From Acidithrix ferrooxidans (GTDB taxonomy: Bacteria; Actinomycetota; Acidimicrobiia; Acidimicrobiales; Acidimicrobiaceae): a stretch of 57,400 nt of DNA. Location of the stretch: the NCBI RefSeq assembly GCF_000949295.1, contig NZ_JXYS01000070.1, positions 34 to 57,433 of the forward strand, given 5' to 3'. The position numbers and the translations under genes are program-made. The notes beneath the pieces were generated by a model that searched no databases, was not told the origin of the DNA, and saw only the letters and a list, made by a program, of their open reading frames with translations. Positions 1,141 through 31,214 of the stretch are shown in pieces. Numbering within the stretch: position 1 is the stretch's first letter; every line of letters begins with the position of its first letter.

Positions 1141-2277
1141 TTAATCGGTATTCGCCAGAATTTCGCTGACTATCTCCCTGACCTGATTTTTCTTTATCTT
1201 GCCAAGTGCTGTCTTGGGGAGGCTTTCTAAAATTACAATCTTGCGTGGAGCGTAATACCTTGGGAGTACCTCTCGGACATGATCTTTGACTTGTGATAGG
1301 GAGATCGGTCCATTTGTTATGAGTGCGGCAACCGTGATTTGGCCAAAGTCCTCGTCGTCTATGCCTACAACCGCAACGTCTAGCACTGCATCGAGGGTTC
1401 GAATTCGTTCTTCAAGGAGAGATGGCACAACCTTTTCGCCTCCGGTCACAATCATCTCGGCCGCTCGTCCCCAAACCGTCAGTTTTCCATCTATCATTGC
1501 CCCTACGTCGCCACTGTGGAAAAATCCATCCGAGTCGGTTAGAGGACTACTGTCTCGATAGCAACTAGCGAGCATCGGGCCGGCTATTAATATTCCTCCG
1601 TCCTCTTTGATCTTCACCTCTACGCCATCGAGGGGGACTCCGTCATAGACGCATCCTGATCCGGTCTCGGTCAGTCCATAGGTAACAGAGGCGTTTCTGG
1701 GTACATTTTCAGGAGGTATTCCGGCTCCCAGGATTAGACATTCAAAGTCGCCCGGATTGATTTGAGAGAGATTGGCTCGCACGATAGACATGTAGACCTT
1801 GGTTGCCTTGGCAATCTCGGTGAATCTATCGTATTCAAATCTCTCAAATGTTTGAAGTGGCATCTGTGAGTATTGAGCTTTTGTGATCGTAGAGAAGCCA
1901 CCTATGTGGCTAATAGGCAAAGCGTTGAGCCAAAGGCCATCGCCTATTTGAGCTCCAATTCGCTTGAGAGTGGCATGGGCTGAGGCTTCCATTGCCAAAT
2001 GACTATGTTGAACGGCTTTTGGATGGCCCGAGGTTCCCGAGGTTGTAGCCACCAAAGCACAATTTTCGATTAAATCGTGGATTCTTTCCCGCCTTTGAAT
2101 CGATCCATCAGCCCGCACGACCTGATCCGGGTCGATTGTAGAGATCAATTCATCAAGAAATGGAGCAGGTGCCCTCGGATCTAGAACGCAGACTGCATCT
2201 CCTTTGTCCCAGCATCTATGAATTTCATCGACTAGAGCATTTGATTGCGACTCTATAAAGGTGATAAGACGTGCCAC
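1141..2277 (-). CDS. menE: O-succinylbenzoate--CoA ligase (MenE)
   Basis: This ANL-superfamily adenylating enzyme activates o-succinylbenzoate with ATP and CoA in the cytosol, making the thioester that MenB cyclises. It shows the P-loop-like TSGTSGHPKA near residues 79-88, the YGLTETG motif at 200-206, SGDVG near 255-259, and the C-terminal KTALGKIKK with the late catalytic lysine near 360. At 378 residues it is short for an acyl-CoA synthetase, which is usual for actinobacterial MenE. The start is GTG with a weak ribosome binding site. It is divergent from menB with 239 bp between. The assignment rests on motifs and on the menB/menA neighbourhood; other small acyl-CoA ligases would look similar in isolation. 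Confidence 0.88.
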   Translation of the reverse strand: MARLITFIESQSNALVDEIHRCWDKGDAVCVLDPRAPAPFLDELISTIDPDQVVRADGSIQRRERIHDLIENCALVATTSGTSGHPKAVQHSHLAMEASAHATLKRIGAQIGDGLWLNALPISHIGGFSTITKAQYSQMPLQTFERFEYDRFTEIAKATKVYMSIVRANLSQINPGDFECLILGAGIPPENVPRNASVTYGLTETGSGCVYDGVPLDGVEVKIKEDGGILIAGPMLASCYRDSSPLTDSDGFFHSGDVGAMIDGKLTVWGRAAEMIVTGGEKVVPSLLEERIRTLDAVLDVAVVGIDDEDFGQITVAALITNGPISLSQVKDHVREVLPRYYAPRKIVILESLPKTALGKIKKNQVREIVSEILANTD

Positions 2278-2516
2278 AAAAACTAAGGTTATAAGTAAAA
2301 GTTGCTTTTGACGGCCGATTCAAAGCCTCTTTGCTCCAAATAAGAGATGGATCAATTAGAGTTGGATCAAAACAGATTTGTCTTAGAAGGCCTGAGTCAA
2401 AGTCATAAAGTAGCTATGTTGTTGCCAAAATGGGCTGGCTCGGAATGCTGAGTTGCCCCTAAAGCGTTATTGATAGCTGCCGGGTTGGCAGTTGTTGAAT
2501 TTGAAGGGTAGTTATC

Positions 2517-3359
2517 GTGGGTTCATCTTTGTTTGGCTGGGTTAGCGCAGGCGACTTCGTAGACATCAAGTATGAACATTTGGATGGGATCGCTAAGATC
2601 ACCATAAATCGCCCTGAGGTTCGGAATGCATTTAGACCTCAGACATTGGTGGAGCTGGCAAAGGCCTTCGAAGATGCAAGAAACGATCCGAGCGTTGGCG
2701 CGATAATTCTAACTGGCGAAGGGGATCTGGCCTTTTGTTCAGGTGGTGATCAGAGGATCCGGGGCGAGGATGGATATATCGGGAGTGATGAGCTTGGAAA
2801 AGCGGGTATCGGACGGCTAAACGTCTTGGATCTTCAAGTTCAGATTCGAAGACTTCCTAAACCCGTCGTTGCCATGGTTGCAGGCTATGCCATTGGTGGT
2901 GGCCACGTCCTTCATCTGGTATGTGACCTCTCGATTGCAGCTGAGAATGCTAAGTTTGGCCAGACTGGGCCAAGAGTCGGTAGCTTTGACGGTGGCTATG
3001 GCGCTTCATTGCTGGCTCGAACGATCGGGCTAAAGCGTGCCAAGGAGATTTGGTTCCTCTGTCGTCAATACGACGCACAGACAGCTTTTGATTGGGGCCT
3101 TGTAAATGCGGTTGTACCTCTAGAGAACCTAGAGGCGGAGACTGTCAAGTGGTGTCGAGAGATGCTGGATCTTTCGCCTTTGGCTCTAAGAATGCTCAAA
3201 GCTTCATTCAACGCAGCTGACGATGGTTTAGCCGGGGTTCAACAGTTGGCCGGCGACGCCACTTTGCTCTTTTATATGACCGAAGAAGCCCAAGAGGGAC
3301 GGGACGCCTTTAAAGAGAAGCGAAAGCCGGACTTTGATCAATTCCCAAGGAGACCATAA
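2517..3359 (+). CDS. menB: 1,4-dihydroxy-2-naphthoyl-CoA synthase (MenB)
   Basis: This crotonase-family enzyme performs the Dieckmann-type ring closure of o-succinylbenzoyl-CoA. Visible are the crotonase start SGGDQ (75-79), the oxyanion-hole stretch GYAIGGGH (123-130), and the MenB-specific stretch [16 protein letters not shown] (147-162). The C-terminal tail ending in [15 protein letters not shown] is also typical. Length is 280 residues, within the usual range. The start is GTG, preceded by GAAGGG at a suitable distance. menA follows after 123 bp on the same strand, so co-transcription is possible. The product of MenE is its substrate, and menE lies divergently next to it. Confidence 0.95.
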
Positions 3360-3482
3360 CTTTTCATCGTGGATTGCAGGGTTTTTGTACATTTATCAAA
3401 TGTGAGAATTTTTCTTCGGGCTATGGTGCTATTGGTGTCTTTTTCTAGTTTCGATTACTCACAAGTCAGGTTGGTTAGCTAA

Positions 3483-4346
3483 GTGGCTACTACTAAGGAA
3501 TGGGTTGCAGGAGCTCGTCCCAGGACTCTACCCGCTGCTCTGGTACCAGTTGCCATTGCAAGTGGTGCAAGTGGCAGTCATTTTGTTTGGGATAGAGCAG
3601 CTTTGGCTCTTGTGGTTTCTTTGGCGATTCAAATTGCGACGAACTACGCAAACGACTATTCCGACGGTAAGCGGGGCACTGATGACGTTAGGGTTGGCCC
3701 AATGCGTCTTGTCGCGAGCAAGAAGGCAACTCCAAAGCAAGTTCTATTGGCAGCGATGGTATTTTTTGGCGTAGCAGGTGTTGCGGGCGGCGTCTTGGCG
3801 CTGATAGCTGCTTGGTGGCTTTTGATCGTGGGGGCTTTGGCGATTTTGGCTGGGTGGTACTACACCGGTGGCAAACATCCTTATGGCTACCTTGGCTTGG
3901 GCGAGGTCTTTGTCTTTGTCTTTTTCGGGCTGGTTGCTGTTCTGGGCACCTACTACGTGCAGGTATCCAAGGTTGATTTGACTTCAGTGGTCTTGGGATG
4001 CGCTTCGGGGTTTTTGGCAGTTGCTCTGCTGGTGATAAATAACTTGCGCGACATCCCAACAGACAAAGCTTCTGGCAAGGCGACCTTGGCCGTGCGGATG
4101 GGCGACACCAGAACACGAAAGTTCTACGTCGGGTTGATGGTAATGGCAGTACTGCTTCCTCTTTTGCTCGTTGGGACCTTTCCCTATCTTTTGATACTTT
4201 TGATACTTTTGATTCCCCTTTGGGATCCTATCAATTCGGTACTAAATGGAGCCAAAGGAAGAGATCTCATTGCAGTTTTGGGTAAGACGGGTCGGCTTCA
4301 AATTCTCTTTGGTCTCTTGGCTACTCTTGCTCTTGCTCTCAAATAG
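3483..4346 (+). CDS. menA: 1,4-dihydroxy-2-naphthoate prenyltransferase (MenA)
   Basis: An integral membrane prenyltransferase of the UbiA family that attaches the polyprenyl tail to 1,4-dihydroxy-2-naphthoate, giving demethylmenaquinone. The first Asp-rich motif is NDYSDGKRGTD (57-67) and the second is NNLRDIPTDKASGK (186-199); both bind Mg-diphosphate in the family. The rest is made of hydrophobic helices, about eight or nine. Length 287 residues is typical. The start is GTG, with no strong ribosome binding site. The stop codon lies in the first unit of a 14-bp tandem repeat, so the 3' end of the gene was duplicated into the flanking DNA. Confidence 0.93.
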   Translation: MATTKEWVAGARPRTLPAALVPVAIASGASGSHFVWDRAALALVVSLAIQIATNYANDYSDGKRGTDDVRVGPMRLVASKKATPKQVLLAAMVFFGVAGVAGGVLALIAAWWLLIVGALAILAGWYYTGGKHPYGYLGLGEVFVFVFFGLVAVLGTYYVQVSKVDLTSVVLGCASGFLAVALLVINNLRDIPTDKASGKATLAVRMGDTRTRKFYVGLMVMAVLLPLLLVGTFPYLLILLILLIPLWDPINSVLNGAKGRDLIAVLGKTGRLQILFGLLATLALALK

Positions 4347-17930: not shown

Positions 17931-18734
17931 TTATATGTTGGATACGGTGAGAAACTGGGATATGGCGATGGCGCATTCGTATGGGCGTTCGCCCAAGAGA
18001 TAGTGCCCGCTAGAGGCGACCTCAATGAGATCTAGGTTGTCTCTGAGGCGCTCTTTCATGAGGTGGCCGATTTGGCCGAATTTTGCGTCGTTTTGGCCAT
18101 AAAGATAAGCAAAGGGCACCTTTAGCGATGCTAGTTCTTCAAGAAGGTAGCTTTGTTCGGCTAAACCCGTTGATTTTAAAGACTGTGCCAGCTTTATGGG
18201 TTCATTCACAAGGCGTGATCCAATTTGAGCTTGATCTGGATGAATTCCTCCAAAGATTGGCGCAGAGAGCCATTTCATCAAGAACTTCCTGAGCTCTGCT
18301 TCGTTAGTGATTTGCGATAGTGATAGTGCTAGCTTCTCATCGCTTTCTCTGCGACTTTGGAGAGCACTTGAATCGATCAAGCCCGGATTTGCCCCTATCG
18401 CTATGAGGCCGGCTGCGGCTTCGGGTCGATGGATCGCTATGTGGTAGGCGATTCTACCTCCTAGGGAGTATCCGATGAAAACCGCGGAGCCGAAGGTGTC
18501 GCCTAGCATCTCCGCGATCTCTCTGAGATTTAGGTTTGGAGGGTTTTGGCTATTGTGGCCTGGTAAATCGACTAAGTGCAGGGGTCGATTTGTTAGCTTT
18601 GCGAGGAGGCGCGCAAAGGGAGTAAGGGTTTTTGCATTTTGGGTAAAACCGTGGATTAGCACGATTTTGTTTTCGTCTTGTAACTTTGTTGGAATCGCGC
18701 TTGGCGCTATTGTGTGGAAGAGTATCTTAGCCAT
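17931..18734 (-). CDS. menH: SHCHC synthase-like alpha/beta hydrolase (MenH)
   Basis: An alpha/beta-fold hydrolase of 267 residues. The nucleophile elbow is GYSLGG with Ser90, the acid is Asp216 in YGQNDAKF, and the histidine is His244 in SGHYLL. MenH removes pyruvate from the MenD product SEPHCHC to give SHCHC. The oxyanion motif HGFTQNAKT (28-36) matches MenH, where HGF is followed by a similar turn. The assignment is helped by menD being divergent next door with 189 bp between. The ATG has AAGG 9 bases upstream. Other small hydrolases share the fold, so the pathway role is inferred from context. Confidence 0.82.
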   Translation of the reverse strand: MAKILFHTIAPSAIPTKLQDENKIVLIHGFTQNAKTLTPFARLLAKLTNRPLHLVDLPGHNSQNPPNLNLREIAEMLGDTFGSAVFIGYSLGGRIAYHIAIHRPEAAAGLIAIGANPGLIDSSALQSRRESDEKLALSLSQITNEAELRKFLMKWLSAPIFGGIHPDQAQIGSRLVNEPIKLAQSLKSTGLAEQSYLLEELASLKVPFAYLYGQNDAKFGQIGHLMKERLRDNLDLIEVASSGHYLLGERPYECAIAISQFLTVSNI

Positions 18735-18923
18735 TTCCCGGGACCTTCGTTAAAGTCATTCTTGGTGATGGATGATAGCCTAGATATGTAAGGATAAATT
18801 TAGGGAACTTTTTCCTTATCTTAGAAGGTTGAATCTAATTTGAGGTTTTGGCGACTAAGAAGTGGCGGTTAAGTTCTCTTTCTTCGTTCTTGGTTGGAAG
18901 ATGTTTTGTAAATTGGGTGTAAG

Positions 18924-20687
18924 TTGACTTTCGAAATCGACGAGGCAGTTGGTAATCAGTTCGTGGCTATGACAATAGTGGATGAGCTCTATCGAAATGG
19001 AGTTCGCTATGTCGCCATCTCTCCTGGATCGAGATCTACTCCGCTAGCTTTGGCGTTCCTTGCTCACCATGGTATCTCTGCTCGAGTCATTTTAGATGAA
19101 CGCAGTTCATCCTTTTTCGCGCTCGGGCTAGCGAAGGCTTCTAATGCTCCCGTTGCTATTTTGACTACCTCAGGTACGGCATCTGTGGAGTTGAGCCCCG
19201 CCATAACCGAGGCTTACTACTCGGGTCTACCTCTGATCGTACTTAGTAGCGATAGGCCGCTTGAGCTCTATGGAACGGGATCTTCACAGACGATAAATCA
19301 GACTGAGCTGTATTCTGGTTTCGTGGTGGGGAGGATCTTGATTGATGCTGGCGCTAAAGGAGCTTGGAGCAGTATTCGATCATCGATCTCAAGGGCTGTC
19401 CTAGAGGCCAAGGGTCTATTTGGACCTGGAGGACCGTTTCATTTGAACGTCTCGTTTAGGGAGCCGTTGATTTCACCCCAATACGAACCAAACGGGCAGT
19501 TTCAGGGTAGGGGAAACGAGGAGCCTTGGTACGAAAAGATAGATCTCGCCTCGCACGACAAGACTTACGAGTTCGCGCGCACTCTATGCTCGGTCAGACG
19601 TGGTCTCATAGTGGTTGGAGAAGATCGTCAATTAGAAGCTATATTCGCGATCTCTGAACTACTTGGTTGGCCGACGCTAGTCGATCCTCGTGCTGGAATC
19701 GTGAGGCGTTCTCGTTTTGCCATTACCCACTTTGATTCAATTTTACGACAAGGAACCCTAACGGAGGCCTTGACTCCAGCGGTCATACTATATTTTGGAA
19801 TGCCATCTGCCTCTAAGGTGCTTTCGCAATTTATAGCGAGGGTCTCGTCGAATGACAATGGCCCACTGACCAAGGTCTTTCGATCTGGGCGTAGAGCATG
19901 GGATCCAGAGGGCACGGCTTCGGGGTTCATAGTTGGCAACCTTGAACGATTGGTAGCGCAACTTTCTGGCCAAGCAATCGAAGAGCCCTCTAAACATATC
20001 GAAGCCTTTACCAACGCCTTTTTGGACGCTGATGGCCGAATTGAAAAGGTTATCGAGGGCTCTTTGGACCTTGGCGTAGAGACTCGTTCGATTCGTGAGG
20101 TAGTTCGACATTTGCTCCCAAGTGACCTCTTGTTTGTATCAGCATCGATGCCAATTCGCGACCTTGAGAGTTTTGCCTCAAATGAGAATAGCTTTCCGGT
20201 GATCCTGGAGAACCGAGGCACCAATGGGATCGATGGGATTATCGCGACTTTTTCTGGAAGTGCTAGCCATCTAAGTGCGCTCTGTCCCGATACGATAGCG
20301 GTTTTGATCTTGGGTGACCTCTCGTTTCTATACGACGTCTCATTTTTAAGGGAGCTCTCCCGTCTTGATTTAGCAGCTCTAATCGTCGTTCTTGACAACA
20401 ATGGTGGAGGCATCTTCTCGTTTCTTTCACAAAAAGATATCGTCGATGAGAAGTCGTTTGAAACACTCTTTGGAACTCCACATAATAGTGACCTAGACCG
20501 CATTGCTAGAGGGTTTGGGATTGATGTAGAAACATCAAAAGATTCATCACGAATTCAAAGCGCAATTGAGGAGGTCAGAGGAAGCAGAAAGACCTCGCTC
20601 CTGGTGATCAAAAGCGACCGAGACGAAAATCTGGCGGCTCATAAAAAGATAAATGAGGCGATCGCAAAAGAGTTTTCCATCGATTGA
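18924..20687 (+). CDS. menD: SEPHCHC synthase (MenD), ThDP-dependent
   Basis: MenD is the first committed enzyme of menaquinone synthesis and adds a succinyl semialdehyde unit from 2-oxoglutarate to isochorismate, using thiamine diphosphate. The N-terminal motif AISPGSRSTPLALA and the DERSSSFFALGLAK stretch with the ThDP-activating Glu (about residue 59) are clear. The C-terminal half has LILGDLSFLYD and VLDNNGGGIFSFL, the family's cofactor and Mg site. Length 587 residues is slightly above the usual. The start is TTG at 18924, within MTFEIDEAVGNQF, with a weak GGGTGTAAG upstream. It is divergent from menH, likely sharing a regulatory region. Confidence 0.95.
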   Translation: MTFEIDEAVGNQFVAMTIVDELYRNGVRYVAISPGSRSTPLALAFLAHHGISARVILDERSSSFFALGLAKASNAPVAILTTSGTASVELSPAITEAYYSGLPLIVLSSDRPLELYGTGSSQTINQTELYSGFVVGRILIDAGAKGAWSSIRSSISRAVLEAKGLFGPGGPFHLNVSFREPLISPQYEPNGQFQGRGNEEPWYEKIDLASHDKTYEFARTLCSVRRGLIVVGEDRQLEAIFAISELLGWPTLVDPRAGIVRRSRFAITHFDSILRQGTLTEALTPAVILYFGMPSASKVLSQFIARVSSNDNGPLTKVFRSGRRAWDPEGTASGFIVGNLERLVAQLSGQAIEEPSKHIEAFTNAFLDADGRIEKVIEGSLDLGVETRSIREVVRHLLPSDLLFVSASMPIRDLESFASNENSFPVILENRGTNGIDGIIATFSGSASHLSALCPDTIAVLILGDLSFLYDVSFLRELSRLDLAALIVVLDNNGGGIFSFLSQKDIVDEKSFETLFGTPHNSDLDRIARGFGIDVETSKDSSRIQSAIEEVRGSRKTSLLVIKSDRDENLAAHKKINEAIAKEFSID

Positions 20688-25270: not shown

Positions 25271-25573
25271 GTGAAAAAAGGACGACATAGGCGTTACGAA
25301 GAGGCACGGATGGCCAAGCGAGCCTTTGTCAAACCTGTCGTTCGTTGTGTTGAATGTAATGGTGACTCGGTGCGCGGGCATGCAGATTGGTGCATGGCCG
25401 CCTCAGAGGAAGAACAATTGCTCGAAGAAGGGGAACTGTATTCCAGCGGTGCCCTGGACGACGATGATGATGATGACGAAGATGAAGAAGATGAAGAAGA
25501 TGAAGACGACGATGATGATGAATATGACAGAGACGTCAAGGGTGTTCATCGCATTATTGACGGACGTCATTAG
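25271..25573 (+). CDS. Small CxxC zinc-finger-like protein with acidic tail
   Basis: A 100-residue protein with three parts. The basic N-terminus (KKGRHRRYEEARMAKR) is followed by a possible zinc site, Cys-x2-Cys-x7-His-x3-Cys, at about residues 26-42 (CVEC, then H and C in GHADWC). The C-terminal half has an almost pure Asp/Glu run of about 26 residues at 64-89, encoded by a GAT/GAC/GAA/GAG microsatellite. It ends with KGVHRIIDGRH. The GTG at 25271 has AAGGGGAG 8 bases upstream; ATG at 25310 is an alternative. The mix of basic head, metal site and acidic tail suggests nucleic-acid or protein binding. I do not recognise a family. Confidence 0.72.
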   Translation: MKKGRHRRYEEARMAKRAFVKPVVRCVECNGDSVRGHADWCMAASEEEQLLEEGELYSSGALDDDDDDDEDEEDEEDEDDDDDEYDRDVKGVHRIIDGRH

Positions 25574-25789: not shown

Positions 25790-26599
25790 TTGGTTTATGA
25801 AAGCGTAGAATTGCTCCGAGCTTTTGATGATGGAAAGATATTCGCAAAGATTGATGGCCATGGCCCTCAACTTGTTGTAGCGCTTCATGGTTGGTCAAGA
25901 ACTTCAAATGATTTTTTGAAGTTGGTGTCAACTTTGGACATGAATCGTTTCAGGTTAGTTCGTTTTGATCTACCAGGTTTTGGCGAATCTGCCCCTCCGG
26001 ACGAGCCGGTGGGAACACAATATTATGCGAGTGCTATAGATCGCGCGATCTGTGAACTCCTTAGTGGCGATGACGCCTTTGGAGAGGATTCCAGGGTTAT
26101 CTTAGTGGGCCATTCTTTTGGTGGCCGGATCGCGATTCGAATCGGGGCCGCTCGTCCGAAGTGGCTTGGGTCGCTGGTTGTATCTGGAGTTCCTCTCTTT
26201 CGAGGTGGCTCGTCTCGCTCTGTGCCTCTTTCTCTATCGATCGCCAAATTCCTAGCATCGAAGGGGATAATTGGAGCGCCTCGGCTGGATAAGATCAAGT
26301 CAAAACACGGCTCGTTGGACTATCGAAATGCTCAAGGAGTGATCCGAGATATCCTTGTCAAGTCGGTCAATGAAGACTACTCCGATGCTCTAAGTATGAT
26401 CGAAGTGGATACATTTTTGATCTGGGGCGCCCTAGATAGTGCTGCCCCAATAGATATGGCACGGAGGGCGCTTGAGATCTTGCCGCGTGGAAAGTTGGAT
26501 GTGATAGCTGATGGTGACCATTTTGCCATCTTTAGTGATCGCTCTAGCCTCTCGAAAACGATTGACGAAATAAGCAATAATCGCTTAGGAACCCTTTGA
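25790..26599 (+). CDS. Alpha/beta hydrolase
   Basis: A 269-residue alpha/beta-fold hydrolase. Its triad is visible: Ser109 in GHSFGG, Asp216 in GALDSAAP and His244 in DGDHFAIF; HGWSRTS (33-39) supplies the oxyanion loop. It lies 22 bp before the MurF-like ligase on the same strand, so the two almost surely form one operon. Substrate unknown: the context suggests a peptide, D-amino-acid or wall-precursor ester or amide, which is inference. The start is TTG at 25790, directly after a stop codon, with no clear ribosome binding site, so a shorter start is possible. Confidence 0.85.
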   Translation: MVYESVELLRAFDDGKIFAKIDGHGPQLVVALHGWSRTSNDFLKLVSTLDMNRFRLVRFDLPGFGESAPPDEPVGTQYYASAIDRAICELLSGDDAFGEDSRVILVGHSFGGRIAIRIGAARPKWLGSLVVSGVPLFRGGSSRSVPLSLSIAKFLASKGIIGAPRLDKIKSKHGSLDYRNAQGVIRDILVKSVNEDYSDALSMIEVDTFLIWGALDSAAPIDMARRALEILPRGKLDVIADGDHFAIFSDRSSLSKTIDEISNNRLGTL

Positions 26600-26621
26600 A
26601 AGGAATCGGCGAGGGCCAAAT

Positions 26622-28214
26622 ATGATTCTGTCGCAAATTAATGTCGCAACTTCGCCGATCTTCCTCGTGGTGGCATTTGCTATCTCTGGAGCATCGGCAA
26701 TTCGATGGATACGTGTGGCTCAACGCGAGCACTATGTGCCAGGATATGTCTTTCGATTCATGCTTCGGTGGTACTTTGCTCGCGACAACGCTTGGAATTT
26801 CTCTCTTTCGTTTGTCATGATACTTTTGCTCTTTGCAACCACATCAAGACCGGCAGTTGTCTCTTCGTCGGTCTTTTGTTTCATTTCGATCGGCATCTTG
26901 ACATTGGTTTTGCCTTTGGGACTGGGTATCAAAGGTCGAACTTCGCCTTTAAAGTGGACCCGTCGTGCGCGATTGCTCTTTGGCGTGACTCTCGCTATAA
27001 ATTTCGTCATATCGGTTGCCTCTTACTTTTTTGGTTTGGCATCTTCAGTTGGTGCTGTTGAGATGGCAATTGCATCTTTGGTAGTAGAGTTAGGTACCTG
27101 GATTACCGCCCCTCTAGAGGAGCGTTCGATAGCCCCTTTTGTAGCGTCGGCAACTTCGAAACTTAATTCGATCAATCCAAAGAGGGTTGCAATCACTGGC
27201 TCCTTCGGAAAGACTTCGACCAAGGTCTATTTGGCTCAATTGTGTCGGGAGTCGATATCAACTCTGGCTTCTCCTGCTAGCTACAACAACCGAGCTGGAT
27301 TGGCTCGTACAGTTAATGAGAATCTCCTTCCAGGTACTGACCTCTTTATAGCTGAAATGGGCACTTTTGGGCCTGGTGAGATTGCCGCTCTTGTTGAATG
27401 GGTGCGCCCAACTGTGGTCGCGATTACTGCCATTGGCCCTGTTCATCTTGAGCGTTTTGGCTCTGAGGAGAACATACTCAAGGCAAAGACAGAGATAGCC
27501 AAGTATGCAGAGGTCGTGGTGTTGAATGTCGATGACCCCCGCTTGATGGTTTTGGCGAGCGAGCTTGAGCGTCAAGGCAAGAAGATCTGGCGGGTTTCTG
27601 GCGTGGAACTTGCACGCAGTGTCGCAGTATTGACAGATGACGACGGTCGTAACGTCGTCTACCACGATCAAAGGCGCATAGGTTCGACTATGACACCCGT
27701 TGCCAAGACCAATTTGGCAGTCGCGGTGGCTATGGCTTTAGAGCTTGGAGTCACTGAAGCTGCAATTGGGAGCGCTCTTACATCTCTAGAGCCTGCCAAG
27801 AACCGTATGAACATAGCCAAACTTGAGAGTGGGGCATCGGTAGTTGACGATACCTACAACTCAAATCCTTCTGGTGCGCGAATGGCTCTTTCGCAGGCGG
27901 CAACGATGTTATTTGCCGGTTCTAAGCTGATCGTGGTTACCCCAGGAATGGTAGAGCTAGGAGATCGTCAGTACGATGAGAATCGACTTTTCGGCGAAGA
28001 GATCGCCTCAGTCGCGACCGATTTGGTTATCGTGGGACTAACCAATAAACGAGCTCTACATCGAGGAGCACTTGGCGAAGTCCAATCGGGACGTTCTAAG
28101 GTGCGAATCACATATCAACCCACCAGAGATGCAGCGGTCAAATGGATCAAAGCTAACTCAACCTCCGGTGATGTTGTTTTGTATGAGAATGACTTGCCTG
28201 ACCACTATGCCTGA
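26622..28214 (+). CDS. MurF-like Mur ligase with N-terminal membrane domain
   Basis: A 530-residue protein in two parts. Residues 1-160 have about four membrane helices (near 9-28, 58-74, 78-104, 118-145), which ordinary MurF lacks. The rest is a Mur ligase: ATP loop TGSFGKTST (192-200), ASYNNRAGLARTVNENL, the Mg-binding AEMGTFGPGEI stretch, AKNRMN and DDTYNSNPSGARMAL. Standard MurF joins D-Ala-D-Ala to UDP-MurNAc-tripeptide in the cytosol; membrane anchoring hints at a lipid-linked or distinct acceptor. The ATG has GAGGG 8 bases upstream. Its last codons lie in a 13-bp tandem duplication. Paired with an alpha/beta hydrolase and facing a D-Ala-D-Ala-ligase-like gene. Confidence 0.85.
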   Translation: MILSQINVATSPIFLVVAFAISGASAIRWIRVAQREHYVPGYVFRFMLRWYFARDNAWNFSLSFVMILLLFATTSRPAVVSSSVFCFISIGILTLVLPLGLGIKGRTSPLKWTRRARLLFGVTLAINFVISVASYFFGLASSVGAVEMAIASLVVELGTWITAPLEERSIAPFVASATSKLNSINPKRVAITGSFGKTSTKVYLAQLCRESISTLASPASYNNRAGLARTVNENLLPGTDLFIAEMGTFGPGEIAALVEWVRPTVVAITAIGPVHLERFGSEENILKAKTEIAKYAEVVVLNVDDPRLMVLASELERQGKKIWRVSGVELARSVAVLTDDDGRNVVYHDQRRIGSTMTPVAKTNLAVAVAMALELGVTEAAIGSALTSLEPAKNRMNIAKLESGASVVDDTYNSNPSGARMALSQAATMLFAGSKLIVVTPGMVELGDRQYDENRLFGEEIASVATDLVIVGLTNKRALHRGALGEVQSGRSKVRITYQPTRDAAVKWIKANSTSGDVVLYENDLPDHYA

Positions 28215-28221
28215 CCACTAT
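28196..28221. repeat. 13-bp tandem duplication over the Mur ligase stop
   Basis: GCCTGACCACTAT occurs at 28196-28208 and 28209-28221. A third partial copy (GCCTAAA) follows. The gene's TGA stop is in the second copy. Without the duplication the same frame would end at TAA after the same residues, so the duplication does not change the protein. Confidence 0.88.
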
Positions 28222-29063
28222 GCCTAAATACCCAGACGCCTAAATGCCTCTTTGGTTAGATAAAAACAGGCCTTGAAATGCCTATCGGCTATAGGTAAAC
28301 AATGGTATTTCTTGGGCGCAGCCTATGGCGTCTTTGGCCGCCCCTTCACAGATCTATGAGTGCCTATAATAGAACGCCCGAACAATGGTACAGGCTATTT
28401 TACTGGACCCAAATTCTATTCCATAACGTGCCCGCCCTGCCTTCTGAGGGCTCCTTCGGCGCCCAAGGAGAGATGTGCACCATCTGGCTTACGAGCCAAG
28501 TGTGCCCCGTGCCATCACGAAAGAGAGCTTGACCATTGTTTCTCTTACTGTCGGCTGACCAGTAAATCTCCGTGGGGTGTTGCGGTTCACTCACTGGGTG
28601 GCTTTAGGGTTGAGGCGGTCGCTATCTATCTCGATAGCGTGACTTTCTTCGACTTCGACCACCTCGCGGCCAGAGGTGTTCAACAAGTCATCTATACAAC
28701 TGACTATTCCACAACTTGCGACCACGCATAAGTGGAGCTTGCTACCACCATCAACGTATCTGAAATTCGATACTAGATGTCTCGTTTTTCGAGATTTATT
28801 ATGGATAAACCTCCCTTTATTGGATTAGAAAGTCACTTTCGTCTTTCCGCAGGGTTGTGGAGAACTCCTTTGGTGCCTAGAACAGGCGCCAAAGTCACTA
28901 AAGGATTTTGGCGACTTTGTCATGTCCAATATTACTAAGACGCTAAGTGAGCGTGGTAGTAAATCTATTGAGATGAATGATACGGCCACTTTGAAACGAT
29001 GGGGGCCGTATCGTTCATCTCTTATTTCAAAAGGCAACGTGGCAAATCAACCAGCAGTGAAAT
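28222..29063. other. Intergenic region with hairpins, possible gene debris
   Basis: About 840 bases between convergent genes. A Cys-rich frame at 28360-28731 (CPPCLLRAP, then CAPCHHE) recalls zinc-binding parts of some transposases but is not conclusive. Several inverted repeats lie at 28830-29021, the largest annotated separately. Confidence 0.4.
28970..29021 (-). terminator. Large hairpin between convergent Mur ligase and Ddl genes
   Basis: The arms GAGATGAATGATACGGCC (28970-28987) and GGCCGTATCGTTCATCTC (29004-29021) pair at 17 of 18 positions around a 16-base loop. It starts 43 bases past the stop of the minus-strand Ddl-like gene, as a terminator would, but there is no long U run after it. 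Confidence 0.5.
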
Positions 29064-30182
29064 CTATCCTAATTTAGATGCGATAGTGCCAGCGGATGAG
29101 AGCGCCGATCCATCAGCTCCTGCGGTGGTAGGTGCGAAGGTGCTAACTTCGGTTGCTTCAGCAATTAGGTCTAGGAGTAGATTTTCAAATGGAATCATAG
29201 GTTCTATGAATAGATACTTAGAGAGACTTCCAGGTATGGTATTTATCTCATTGACATAGAGTTCATCGACTCCGTTTGAGAGGAAGTCAATTCGGGTTAT
29301 TCCTCTCAGCGGCACCGCATCTACAAGGCGGTTGGCGTAGTTGTAGATTGACTCCCTGATGACATCCGATAGTTTTGCTGGAAGTTCACGAGGAGCCTCC
29401 ACCATGCCTGTGCCGCCTACGTACTTGTCCTTGTAAGTTAAAAATTCCCCGCCAGACTTGTCTCGTAGCGGTCGTTCAATGGCCGACAGAACTAATTTAG
29501 GGAATGTTTTTACCGCAATTTGTAGATCGAAAAGATCGCTTCTAAATGGTTCGATTACTGCGCCCAGTTTTAGATGAACATTAGTTCGCAATCTAGCCTT
29601 AGCGGTTTCGAGATCGCTAACCACGTCAATTCCGATGGATGAGCCCCCGTACCTAGGTTTTAGGATAAATGGTGAACCGAAGGTGATTGTTTGTGGTTGG
29701 GTCGTATGGCTCAGGAGGTGCCGGTCTAAGTGGGCTATTCCCAAGTTTGCGCATAGGCCAGCGAATGCGAGCTTGTCCATTCCTAAACTAGCACCTAAGG
29801 CGCCCGGGCCGCTGTATTTGATTCCCGCAAGATTTAGAAGGGCTTGTAAGCTACCATCTTCGCCGGGTCCGCCATGTAAGGCATTCAAAACCACGTCAAT
29901 CTCAAGTTTTTTTGGCTTAGAGAAGCTCTTGCCGCCCTGATAGAACCCAGGAGAATCCCCGAGGTGAATTGTAAGTTTTTCTACCTTTGCTGGTAATCCG
30001 CTTGCGAAAGAGGAGGCCTCACAGCCATTTGGAAGTAGAAAAAAGTCCCCACCTTTTGACCAATAAATACTAGACACCTTGTGGATGGAGTTCAAAAGAC
30101 CCCGTTCCGCTTGGAGGCCTGTCAGGATGGAGATGTCGTGCTCTGGTGATATGCCTCCAAAGAGAACAGCGACGTTTGCCAT
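29064..30182 (-). CDS. D-alanine--D-alanine ligase-like protein
   Basis: An ATP-grasp ligase of 372 residues. It has the Ddl N-terminal motif GGISPEHDIS (9-18), NALHGGPGEDG for the first substrate, a glycine-rich KPRYGGSSIGID loop, and the Mg-binding YVNEINTIPGSL near the end. Such enzymes join two D-alanines, or D-Ala with another D-amino or hydroxy acid. The C-terminal 20 residues after the fold are Ala/Ser/Thr-rich. The ATG has AGGAG 7 bases upstream. It faces the Mur ligase gene; together they would make and attach a dipeptide. Whether it is the organism's housekeeping Ddl or a second, specialised one cannot be told from this window. Confidence 0.87.
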   Translation of the reverse strand: MANVAVLFGGISPEHDISILTGLQAERGLLNSIHKVSSIYWSKGGDFFLLPNGCEASSFASGLPAKVEKLTIHLGDSPGFYQGGKSFSKPKKLEIDVVLNALHGGPGEDGSLQALLNLAGIKYSGPGALGASLGMDKLAFAGLCANLGIAHLDRHLLSHTTQPQTITFGSPFILKPRYGGSSIGIDVVSDLETAKARLRTNVHLKLGAVIEPFRSDLFDLQIAVKTFPKLVLSAIERPLRDKSGGEFLTYKDKYVGGTGMVEAPRELPAKLSDVIRESIYNYANRLVDAVPLRGITRIDFLSNGVDELYVNEINTIPGSLSKYLFIEPMIPFENLLLDLIAEATEVSTFAPTTAGADGSALSSAGTIASKLG

Positions 30183-30476
30183 ATCTTTTCTCCTACTTCG
30201 TATTTAGTCATAAATTGTAATTAGTGCGCAAATGAACCCACTGGGGCATTTTTTAGATTTGCGCTACTTCAAGATGTCTAGCCTACCCGAAGATCTCTTT
30301 AGAGCCCATCTGAAATTTTTGCCGCCTAAGTAATTTAAGGTCTTTATTATTTGGAAGGAAAGTAGGGAAATTCACTCGGACCATCGATTGGTATCAAAGC
30401 CTTTCACGGATGCATCCTGGGGATATATCAATTTGACCATCAAATATTCGATCTTTGGTGATTTTATGATCTGACT

Positions 30477-31214
30477 TTGATCATATTGGCATCAAAACGA
30501 ACTCGAAGGGTTCCCTCAAAAGGCTACACTTTCCTATCAGTGCAAGATCATTTCGAAGACAAAGCCGAACAGCGCTTCACCGATGCGGGTGAAGAGGTCC
30601 TTTATGTGACCAATCCGCACTTTCTATACCTATTTCGAGCTATAGCGTCGGCCTTTATCATGGCGGTACTCTTTTTCACTTCGATATTTATCTTGCCTTG
30701 GCTGCCGATCCTGATTAAGTTTTTGCTTGGCTGTCTTTTGATTGTAGCGGTTTGCTACTTTGTCTTTAAATATCTTCAATGGAGGCGAATTGAGTGCGTA
30801 GTTACTCCAAGGAGGCTGATTACGGCGTCGGGAGTTTTTACGATCCGAAGTTCGGAGGTTCCACTTGAGAGAATCGGTGAGATAACACTCAATTCGCCTC
30901 TCTTTGAGAGATTGATCGGAGTCGGTAATCTGAGAGTCGCCTCCCTTGGCGAGGATTCAGATATTAACCTGCACTTTATCCCACAACCGGCCAAGCTAAA
31001 GGCTGCTATTAATAGAGCCAGAGAGGCACGTAACACCAAAGGGACAGGTGCTGCAGCGCCAGCGGCTCTCTTTTCGGCACTCGATGAGATAGTAAAATTG
31101 GGAGATCTTTTTGATAAAGGTCTAATAACTCGAAATGAGTTCGAGCGCTATAAAGCGATATTGTTTGCACGCTTCGAACGAGACCATGGTGCTCCTATGA
31201 GCGGTGACTCTTAA
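30477..31214 (+). CDS. PH-domain membrane protein with SHOCT tail
   Basis: A 245-residue protein with two membrane helices (about 46-67 and 74-92) following a cytosolic N-terminus. Then comes a bacterial PH-like domain (about 100-170), recognised by RIECVVTPRRLI and SSEVPLERIGEITL, as in YdbS/YdbT-type proteins. A C-terminal SHOCT motif, DEIVKLGDLFDKGLITRNEF, sits near 205-225. Such modules are membrane-associated with unknown roles. The start is uncertain: TTG at 30477 has no ribosome binding site, and GTG at about 30540 is possible. Its last 20 bases overlap convergently with the methyltransferase gene. Confidence 0.8.
   Translation: MIILASKRTRRVPSKGYTFLSVQDHFEDKAEQRFTDAGEEVLYVTNPHFLYLFRAIASAFIMAVLFFTSIFILPWLPILIKFLLGCLLIVAVCYFVFKYLQWRRIECVVTPRRLITASGVFTIRSSEVPLERIGEITLNSPLFERLIGVGNLRVASLGEDSDINLHFIPQPAKLKAAINRAREARNTKGTGAAAPAALFSALDEIVKLGDLFDKGLITRNEFERYKAILFARFERDHGAPMSGDS

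Follow-up and report, generated by a model that had tools for sequence, protein, structure and literature searches.

Within a 57,400-nucleotide stretch of the Acidithrix ferrooxidans genome (contig NZ_JXYS01000070.1; the whole stretch is called the window below), a gene for an alpha/beta hydrolase is followed by a gene for a MurF-like ligase with a membrane-spanning N-terminus, and a gene for a D-Ala-D-Ala ligase (Ddl) faces them. The initial annotation of this DNA had described this layout, and the open reading frame (ORF) positions and Pfam domains agree with it, with 22 bp between hydrolase and ligase and 849 bp between the ligase and the facing Ddl. The question that the locus raises is whether these ligases are the organism's own MurF and Ddl or a second, specialised set, and what a hydrolase does in their company. 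As described below, the window MurF and Ddl are the housekeeping pair, and the locus very likely encodes a membrane-type version of the housekeeping branch that supplies D-Ala-D-Ala to peptidoglycan precursors, a reading that rests on sequence comparison.

Housekeeping status of the window ligases

The host genome is available as a draft of 4.02 Mb in 183 contigs with a completeness of 97.98%, in which seven genes carry the Mur_ligase_M domain (PF08245), namely two MurE, MurD, MurC, MurT, FolC and the window MurF. With the MurF model the window gene scores 187 bits, followed by the two MurE at 138 and 114 bits, and a second MurF was not found in the draft genome by the searches with this model and PF08245. 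The Ddl model likewise gave one near-full match (positions 2-298 of 318, 190 bits), which is the window Ddl; its seven other matches are partial and reach 56 bits or less, and six of these were recognised by eye as biotin carboxylases, carbamoyl-phosphate synthase and another ATP-grasp protein, while the seventh lies on contig C75. The initial annotation had proposed to look for a standard murF and ddl elsewhere in the genome, and had reasoned that their absence would make the window genes the housekeeping pair; since no other murF or ddl was found, the window MurF and Ddl are taken as this pair, and the suggestion of a second, specialised set falls away.

The division cluster of the host, on contig C1, comprises rsmH, a putative ftsL, ftsI, murE, mraY, murD and ftsW (the non-Mur names were given from sequence), and its murE overlaps mraY with no murF between them, whereas in E. 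coli murF lies between murE and mraY. About 14 kb of other DNA separates ftsW from murG in this cluster (C1:103102-117435), with contents that are partly oxidoreductase-like by eye. One of the two MurE genes belongs to the cluster (C1:97681-99195, + strand) and the other is located at C26:65810-67351 on the - strand; some genomes with a standard MurF may also have two MurE, as seen from second matches with the MurF model. A MurT-like gene stands beside a GatD-like ORF (named from sequence) at L085:1729-3791, and this pair makes it likely that lipid II amidation also takes place in this organism.

The Ddl gene itself (29064..30182, - strand, 372 amino acids) was assigned by Pfam and TIGR01205. 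Both Dala_Dala_lig_N (77.5 bits) and Dala_Dala_lig_C (73.5 bits) score above their curated cut-offs, and TIGR01205 is the best-scoring family, at 190.4 bits against a cut-off of 245.65 that is not reached. A Lys-Tyr pair is kept in all eight rows of the Ddl alignment, which may be the omega-loop Lys-Tyr that marks D-Ala over D-Lac or D-Ser as the second substrate. The best solved relative is 2pvp, presumably the Ddl of Helicobacter pylori (E 2.2e-32).

A membrane domain on the MurF ligase

The ligase gene (26622..28214, + strand, 530 amino acids) was characterised from its ORF, Pfam, TIGR01143, a tree and an AlphaFold2 model. Its product carries Mur_ligase_M (92.9 bits) and Mur_ligase_C (52.4 bits), both above curated cut-offs, and matches the MurF model TIGR01143 over profile positions 59-402 of 418 only, with 186.8 bits against a cut-off of 288.6. 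Of the features of a classical MurF, the middle and C-terminal Mur domains, the P-loop and the DDxYNxNP-type motif are present; the N-terminal region (profile positions 1 to about 58) is missing and the curated TIGR01143 cut-off is not reached. In classical MurF this N-terminal region is the UDP-binding domain. PF01225 also gave no match to the ligase at E 0.001, and this N-domain is detectable in MurC and both MurE of the same genome. In a trial, PF01225 scored over its cut-off in the MurF of E. coli, that is, in one of three standard MurFs (the two that failed are match segments whose N-terminus may be cut), and not in MurD; the Pfam miss alone is thus weak, and the weight lies on the full-length MurF profile and on the helices.

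Where classical MurF has its N-terminal region, the ligase has a membrane domain (26622..27116, + strand, residues 1-165); the TIGR01143 matches begin at profile position 58-59. As single-sequence hydropathy counts are noisy, averaged profiles were used instead, and the average over 23 relatives contains five membrane windows in the ligase N-terminus. Lysine and arginine residues number 5.5 per sequence in loop 1, 5.2 in loop 2 and 5.3 after helix 5, while the turn that joins helices 4 and 5 has 0.1, a pattern that places the N-terminus outside and the catalytic part inside. The initial annotation had counted four extra helices; the membrane-spanning N-terminus stands, with five predicted helices rather than four, and the count makes no difference to the argument.

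Two loops of this domain, both predicted to be cytosolic, are conserved: loop 1 (26703..26771, + strand, residues 28-50) with the pattern RW.RVAQREHY...RW, and loop 2 (26919..26975, + strand, residues 100-118) with GL..KGRTSPL.WT.R. Residues Q34, E36, H37, Y38 and W50 of loop 1 are invariant in 23 rows from the host's class, as are T113 and R115 of loop 2, and these last two are also invariant in an alignment of the window protein with 41 rows from Campylobacterota (42 rows, both phyla). Loop 1 is strongly conserved in the class and gives no confident alignment between the phyla. In the 42-row alignment, the core retains G196, K197 and T198 of the P-loop, which lies in the segment GSFGKTSTK at the start of the Mur core (27180..27224, + strand, residues 187-201), together with H275, K289, R395, D409, D410, N413 and N415, residues that we assume to be catalytic. 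The MurF-type motif DDTYNSNP (27846..27869, + strand, residues 409-416) compares with DDTYNASP, DDTYNANP or SDVYNANP in the solved MurFs examined. Models of MurT are absent from the 18 families that the window MurF matches at E 0.001, whereas the genome's own MurT does match them.

An AlphaFold2 model of the protein (pLDDT 74.9, pTM 0.72) has core blocks at 74-97 over residues 161-280 and five long helices ahead of the core, parts of this region being of low confidence. In a fold search, whose matches are Mur ligases aligned on the core, the closest solved structures are MurFs, with 3zl8 at Z 25.9 (358 residues aligned, rmsd 5.0); MurT chains follow at Z about 20, with MurT residue 2-3 aligned to model residues 168-170.

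The membrane MurFs also stand together in a tree built on the catalytic core without the membrane part, where a branch with support 100/98 separates 33 of them, drawn from the host's class, the families f32 and f61 and Campylobacterota, from 16 standard MurFs (that of E. coli included) and three MurEs. An earlier core tree without MurE had given 100/100 for 39 membrane against 14 standard MurFs; in the later one nine rows were dropped (three standard and six membrane), and eight were added, namely five standard MurFs, one of them from E. coli, and the three MurEs. The standard MurFs are weakly supported as a group (82/27), and the MurE outgroup branch is long (2.82). In this tree the membrane MurFs of both phyla form one clade, or subfamily. 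The membrane domains of the two phyla are homologous by profile-profile comparison, with E 8.5e-9 and a probability of 95.7 over 87 columns that cover loop 2 and what follows it up to the core; loop 1 lies outside the alignment.

Distribution of the three genes

The lineages sampled were Actinomycetota and Campylobacterota. Within the host's class, 119 genomes were searched twice, once with the window MurF and once with the standard MurF model: 55 have a membrane MurF, 60 have a standard MurF over the cut-off, none has both and four have neither (G037, G093, G108 and G109, of which three are 77-90% complete and G109 is 92% complete). N-termini were examined in 36 fetched loci of the 55, and the other 19 genomes were judged from the range of the match. 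Membrane MurF thus replaces standard MurF in those genomes of the class that have it.

Both states occur within one genus, where G009 (locus L077) has a membrane MurF with the hydrolase and G080 (L180) has a standard MurF, which groups weakly with the MurF of E. coli on a long branch, its genome giving a weak and partial hydrolase match. This difference within a genus suggests that MurF exchanges do happen.

At the 36 loci around membrane MurFs of the class, the hydrolase gene is upstream in all, and in 32 of them ddl is the next gene downstream, on the same strand. Of the remaining four, one has ddl about 5.6 kb away (L054), one lacks it within a 13.5 kb stretch (L062), and two are cut by the contig end (L055 and L079). 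In a sister genome (G014, locus L046) the order is hydrolase, murF, ddl, PH protein and methyltransferase on one strand, and in the window the same genes follow, but ddl and the methyltransferase gene are on the opposite strand, so that ddl has been inverted at its site. A search of 28000-30700 found no inverted repeat of at least 14 nt flanking ddl.

Within Actinomycetota, 30 of 296 genomes match at E 1e-35 or better. Fourteen such loci outside the class were opened, and ten of these have the trio (L166-L175), with their own loop 1 type; nine belong to family f32 and one (L166) to family f61. The other four are standard MurFs (L176-L179).

In Campylobacterota, loci were collected by a scan with the Ddl 2pvp, the best 80 being nearly all from this phylum by title (two are titled only 'bacterium'). 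The hydrolase is found in 71 of these 80, three of its matches being weak or cut (L111, L147 and L163), and MurF as well in 63, all of them ordered ddl-hydrolase-murF on one strand and all except one with hydrolase and MurF within 400 bp (62/63). The other 17 loci either are cut short or do not contain the genes within the stretch. The 58 full-length MurFs of the phylum have the same N-terminal membrane architecture by eye, in agreement with the averaged profile of 24, and the relatives with the trio and a membrane MurF include other Helicobacter, Sulfurimonas, Sulfurospirillum and more. When genomes of the phylum were searched with a Campylobacterota query, a membrane MurF was found in 149 of 150, with matches that start at residue 1-19 (the match is cut in G413, and G414 has internal stops); a standard MurF over the cut-off occurred in none of 20 tested. 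The exception, G456 (1.4 Mb), gave no membrane MurF with this query or with the window MurF, and may be a wall-less symbiont or an incomplete assembly.

The hydrolase, MurF and Ddl genes are thus a conserved module in two phyla. The initial annotation had suggested a three-gene module and a comparison of the neighbourhoods of membrane-MurF homologues; in this comparison the hydrolase and Ddl genes do co-occur with membrane MurF, and the idea stands.

The hydrolase as the constant partner of membrane MurF

The hydrolase gene (25790..26599, + strand, 269 amino acids, from its ORF and Pfam) encodes an apparently cytosolic alpha/beta (serine) hydrolase with an Abhydrolase_1 domain of 66.8 bits, above the curated cut-off. 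S109 (in GHSFGG), D216 and H244 are invariant in a 27-row alignment and form the Ser-Asp-His triad, with S109 as the nucleophile. A wide form of the triad pattern is found at 30 of 36 loci of the host's class and in 65 of 66 Campylobacterota rows of 215 amino acids or more, against 6/36 and 61/66 for a narrow form that was too strict. At the six class loci missed by the wide form, a histidine is visible but disallowed by the pattern, and L074 also lacks GHS.GG. By pattern, 24/36 class rows and 66/66 Campylobacterota rows also have a cap motif whose last residues are VNE or similar. No hydrophobic N-terminus is present in the window hydrolase, which speaks against a secreted wall hydrolase and makes a cytosolic role more likely. 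Its fold model (pLDDT 76) resembles 50 alpha/beta hydrolases among the matches listed at Z 22.4-24.3, the highest being 3kxp (Z 24.3), and such near-equal scores over many generic hydrolases give no hint of the substrate.

The tie to MurF comes from the genomes. A profile built from 20 Campylobacterota hydrolases has a sole match at E 0.001 in the host genome, which is the window hydrolase at E 1.9e-20. In all 55 class genomes with a membrane MurF, the best match of the hydrolase profile (E 7.5e-11 or better) lies directly upstream of it on the same strand, with a gap between the matches of -3 to 432 bases. Among the 60 genomes with a standard MurF, 39 have no match at E 1e-5, and the matches in the other 21 are weaker, the best being a partial one of 7.1e-10 in G072; the four genomes without either MurF gave matches of 8.8e-7 or worse. 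The E level that separates these groups was read off after the listing had been seen, and the adjacency count is independent of it. Some membrane-MurF genomes have extra, non-adjacent hydrolases that score well, up to 2.4e-20 in G012. The hydrolase is thus a constant partner of the membrane-type MurF. Another alpha/beta-hydrolase-like ORF of the window (17931-18734) lies in a run of menaquinone genes and is not matched by the Campylobacterota hydrolase profile.

Proposed mechanism and alternatives

In the mechanism that we propose, Ddl would make D-Ala-D-Ala, and the membrane-embedded MurF would add this dipeptide to the tripeptide stem on the cytosolic side of the membrane. There the loops of the membrane domain may bind the acceptor, in the simplest case UDP-MurNAc-tripeptide, by its sugar-diphosphate end. 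The product would then be handed to an adjacent MraY, and the hydrolase may act on the same precursor or on a by-product; with low confidence, it could trim or edit a D-Ala-terminated peptide. A UDP-linked acceptor is the simpler assumption, and the domain logic would favour a lipid-linked one.

Several points weigh against this reading. The draft consists of 183 contigs, so an overlooked second copy of either ligase gene is possible. Neither ligase reaches its NCBIfam cut-off (288.6 bits for MurF, which scores 186.8, and 245.65 bits for Ddl, which scores 190.4), so that their activity is read from motifs and from their sole-copy status. In the MurF model, residues 23-60 (loop 1) and 105-111 (in loop 2) fall below pLDDT 50, which leaves the proposed role of the loops without structural backing. 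Ddl is non-adjacent in two of the 34 loci where its position is visible (L054 and L062). Essentiality data from Campylobacter jejuni also bear on the pair, and there we take cj0432c and cj0433c to be murD and mraY. In a C. jejuni study, murF (cj0795c) and ddl (cj0798c) are listed as essential by flux-balance prediction only and not by transposon mutagenesis, in the same column as cj0432c and cj0433c, and the text searched has no mention of cj0796c (PMC3229698).

The alternative that survives best is that the membrane MurF works after MraY on a lipid-linked acceptor (lipid I or II with a tripeptide), so that the stem peptide is completed on the membrane, which we regard as possible if somewhat doubtful. 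The UDP-binding region of classical MurF is gone and membrane helices are found instead, and the membrane domain has invariant polar loop residues. MurT, named a lipid II isoglutaminyl synthase subunit by NCBIfam, also seems to be without the N-domain, since its chains start at the middle domain, and MurT works on lipid II; FolC and cyanophycin synthetase are further Mur-fold ligases without UDP substrates and without that N-domain, whereas MurC and both MurE of the host genome keep it in detectable form. Against this, MraY would have to accept a tripeptide substrate, the missing Pfam N-domain is weak evidence for the reason given above, and the product of the reaction is described as UDP-MurNAc-pentapeptide (PMC5530802). 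An extended form of the same idea is that the pentapeptide is finished on lipid I/II after MraY throughout Campylobacterota and in several actinobacterial lineages, where MurF would grip the lipid-linked precursor by its membrane domain, with the hydrolase as an obligate second subunit like GatD for MurT; this we consider unlikely and offer as speculation.

An improbable alternative is that the helices only anchor the enzyme, localising it beside MraY/MurG or shape proteins, with substrate binding wholly in the core. The MurF of H. pylori, an essential precursor enzyme, has been placed in a shape complex with Csd5 (PMC9507126), which is consistent with an anchor, but a mere anchor needs no invariant residues, and the loop residues are invariant within groups, T113 and R115 in both phyla.

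It is still less probable that the hydrolase is an operon passenger unrelated to MurF. Its fold matches many generic hydrolases about equally and no substrate is assigned, and in a C. jejuni study an extra copy of Cj0796c left most transformants unchanged in shape (PMC5530802). In the same study, about 1 in 10 transformants filamented and preliminary attempts at deletion were unsuccessful (PMC5530802); moreover, the hydrolase adjoins MurF in 55/55 genomes, no match at that level occurs in the 60/60 standard-MurF genomes, and the gene is kept in two phyla despite a different gene order. Finally, a second, specialised pair (for resistance, a capsule or a peptide product) beside a standard murF and ddl is hardly credible. 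A MurF does not usually have membrane helices or a hydrolase beside it, which would suit such a pair, but no second murF or ddl was found and 0/119 genomes have both membrane and standard MurF.

MurF has long served as an antibacterial target and has mostly been studied as a soluble enzyme. If a phylum with human pathogens and several actinobacterial lineages rely on a membrane MurF that lacks the UDP-binding region, compounds designed against that region would not be expected to fit it, and the order of precursor assembly may differ as well; lipid-linked completion, if true, would reorder the textbook pathway in a group to which H. pylori and C. jejuni belong. Through its strict tie to MurF, what was only a 'putative hydrolase' becomes a cell-wall gene open to testing, a missing partner that can now be named.

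Other features of the locus

The 849 bp between MurF and the inverted ddl (28215-29063) contain no clear gene; there is one unassigned ORF of 123 amino acids at 28360-28731. A possible terminator is an 18-nt hairpin at 28970-29021, with 94% complementarity. Ahead of the hydrolase gene, a 100-amino-acid ORF (25271-25573) has a strongly acidic D/E run and Cys/His close to its start, with no family match. Further upstream, 1141-4346 and 17931-20687 hold menaquinone-synthesis-like ORFs (MenE, MenB, MenA, MenH-like and MenD, named from sequence).

Comparison with known systems

The locus belongs to a housekeeping system of a partly known type, and the cross-phylum module and the hydrolase tie are apparently unreported: no report of the module, of the exclusion of standard MurF or of the strict hydrolase link was found in the open-access literature. 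The four transmembrane segments of H. pylori MurF reportedly go back to Blair et al. 2018. This protein is described as an inner-membrane protein with four N-terminal transmembrane domains (PMC9448923), and C. jejuni Cj0796c as an alpha/beta hydrolase adjoining the MurF Cj0795c and the Ddl Cj0798c, with a role in peptidoglycan biosynthesis suggested as possible (PMC5530802). The window locus is thus like these in the transmembrane N-terminus of MurF (H. pylori) and in the hydrolase and ddl beside murF (C. jejuni), and differs in order, which is ddl-hydrolase-murF in Campylobacterota and hydrolase-murF-ddl in Actinomycetota, with ddl inverted in the window, and in the sequence of loop 1. The Campylobacterota comparison drew on relatives and, from H. 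pylori and C. jejuni themselves, on the 2pvp Ddl stretch. With 2pvp the window Ddl shares about 33% identity over the aligned stretch and a similar end motif, NEIN.IPGSL..YLF.

Compared with classical MurF (E. coli; Thermotoga maritima 3zl8), the window MurF shares the middle and C-terminal Mur domains, the P-loop, a DDTYN.NP-type motif and the fold, as opposed to the N-terminal region, where the window protein has membrane helices, the location in the division cluster and the clade, in all of which the two differ. MurT of MurT/GatD is likewise a Mur ligase with an adjacent partner enzyme, the solved chains of which start at the middle domain and resemble the window MurF at the lower fold score given above; MurT chemistry differs from that of MurF, and the MurT models are not matched by the window protein.

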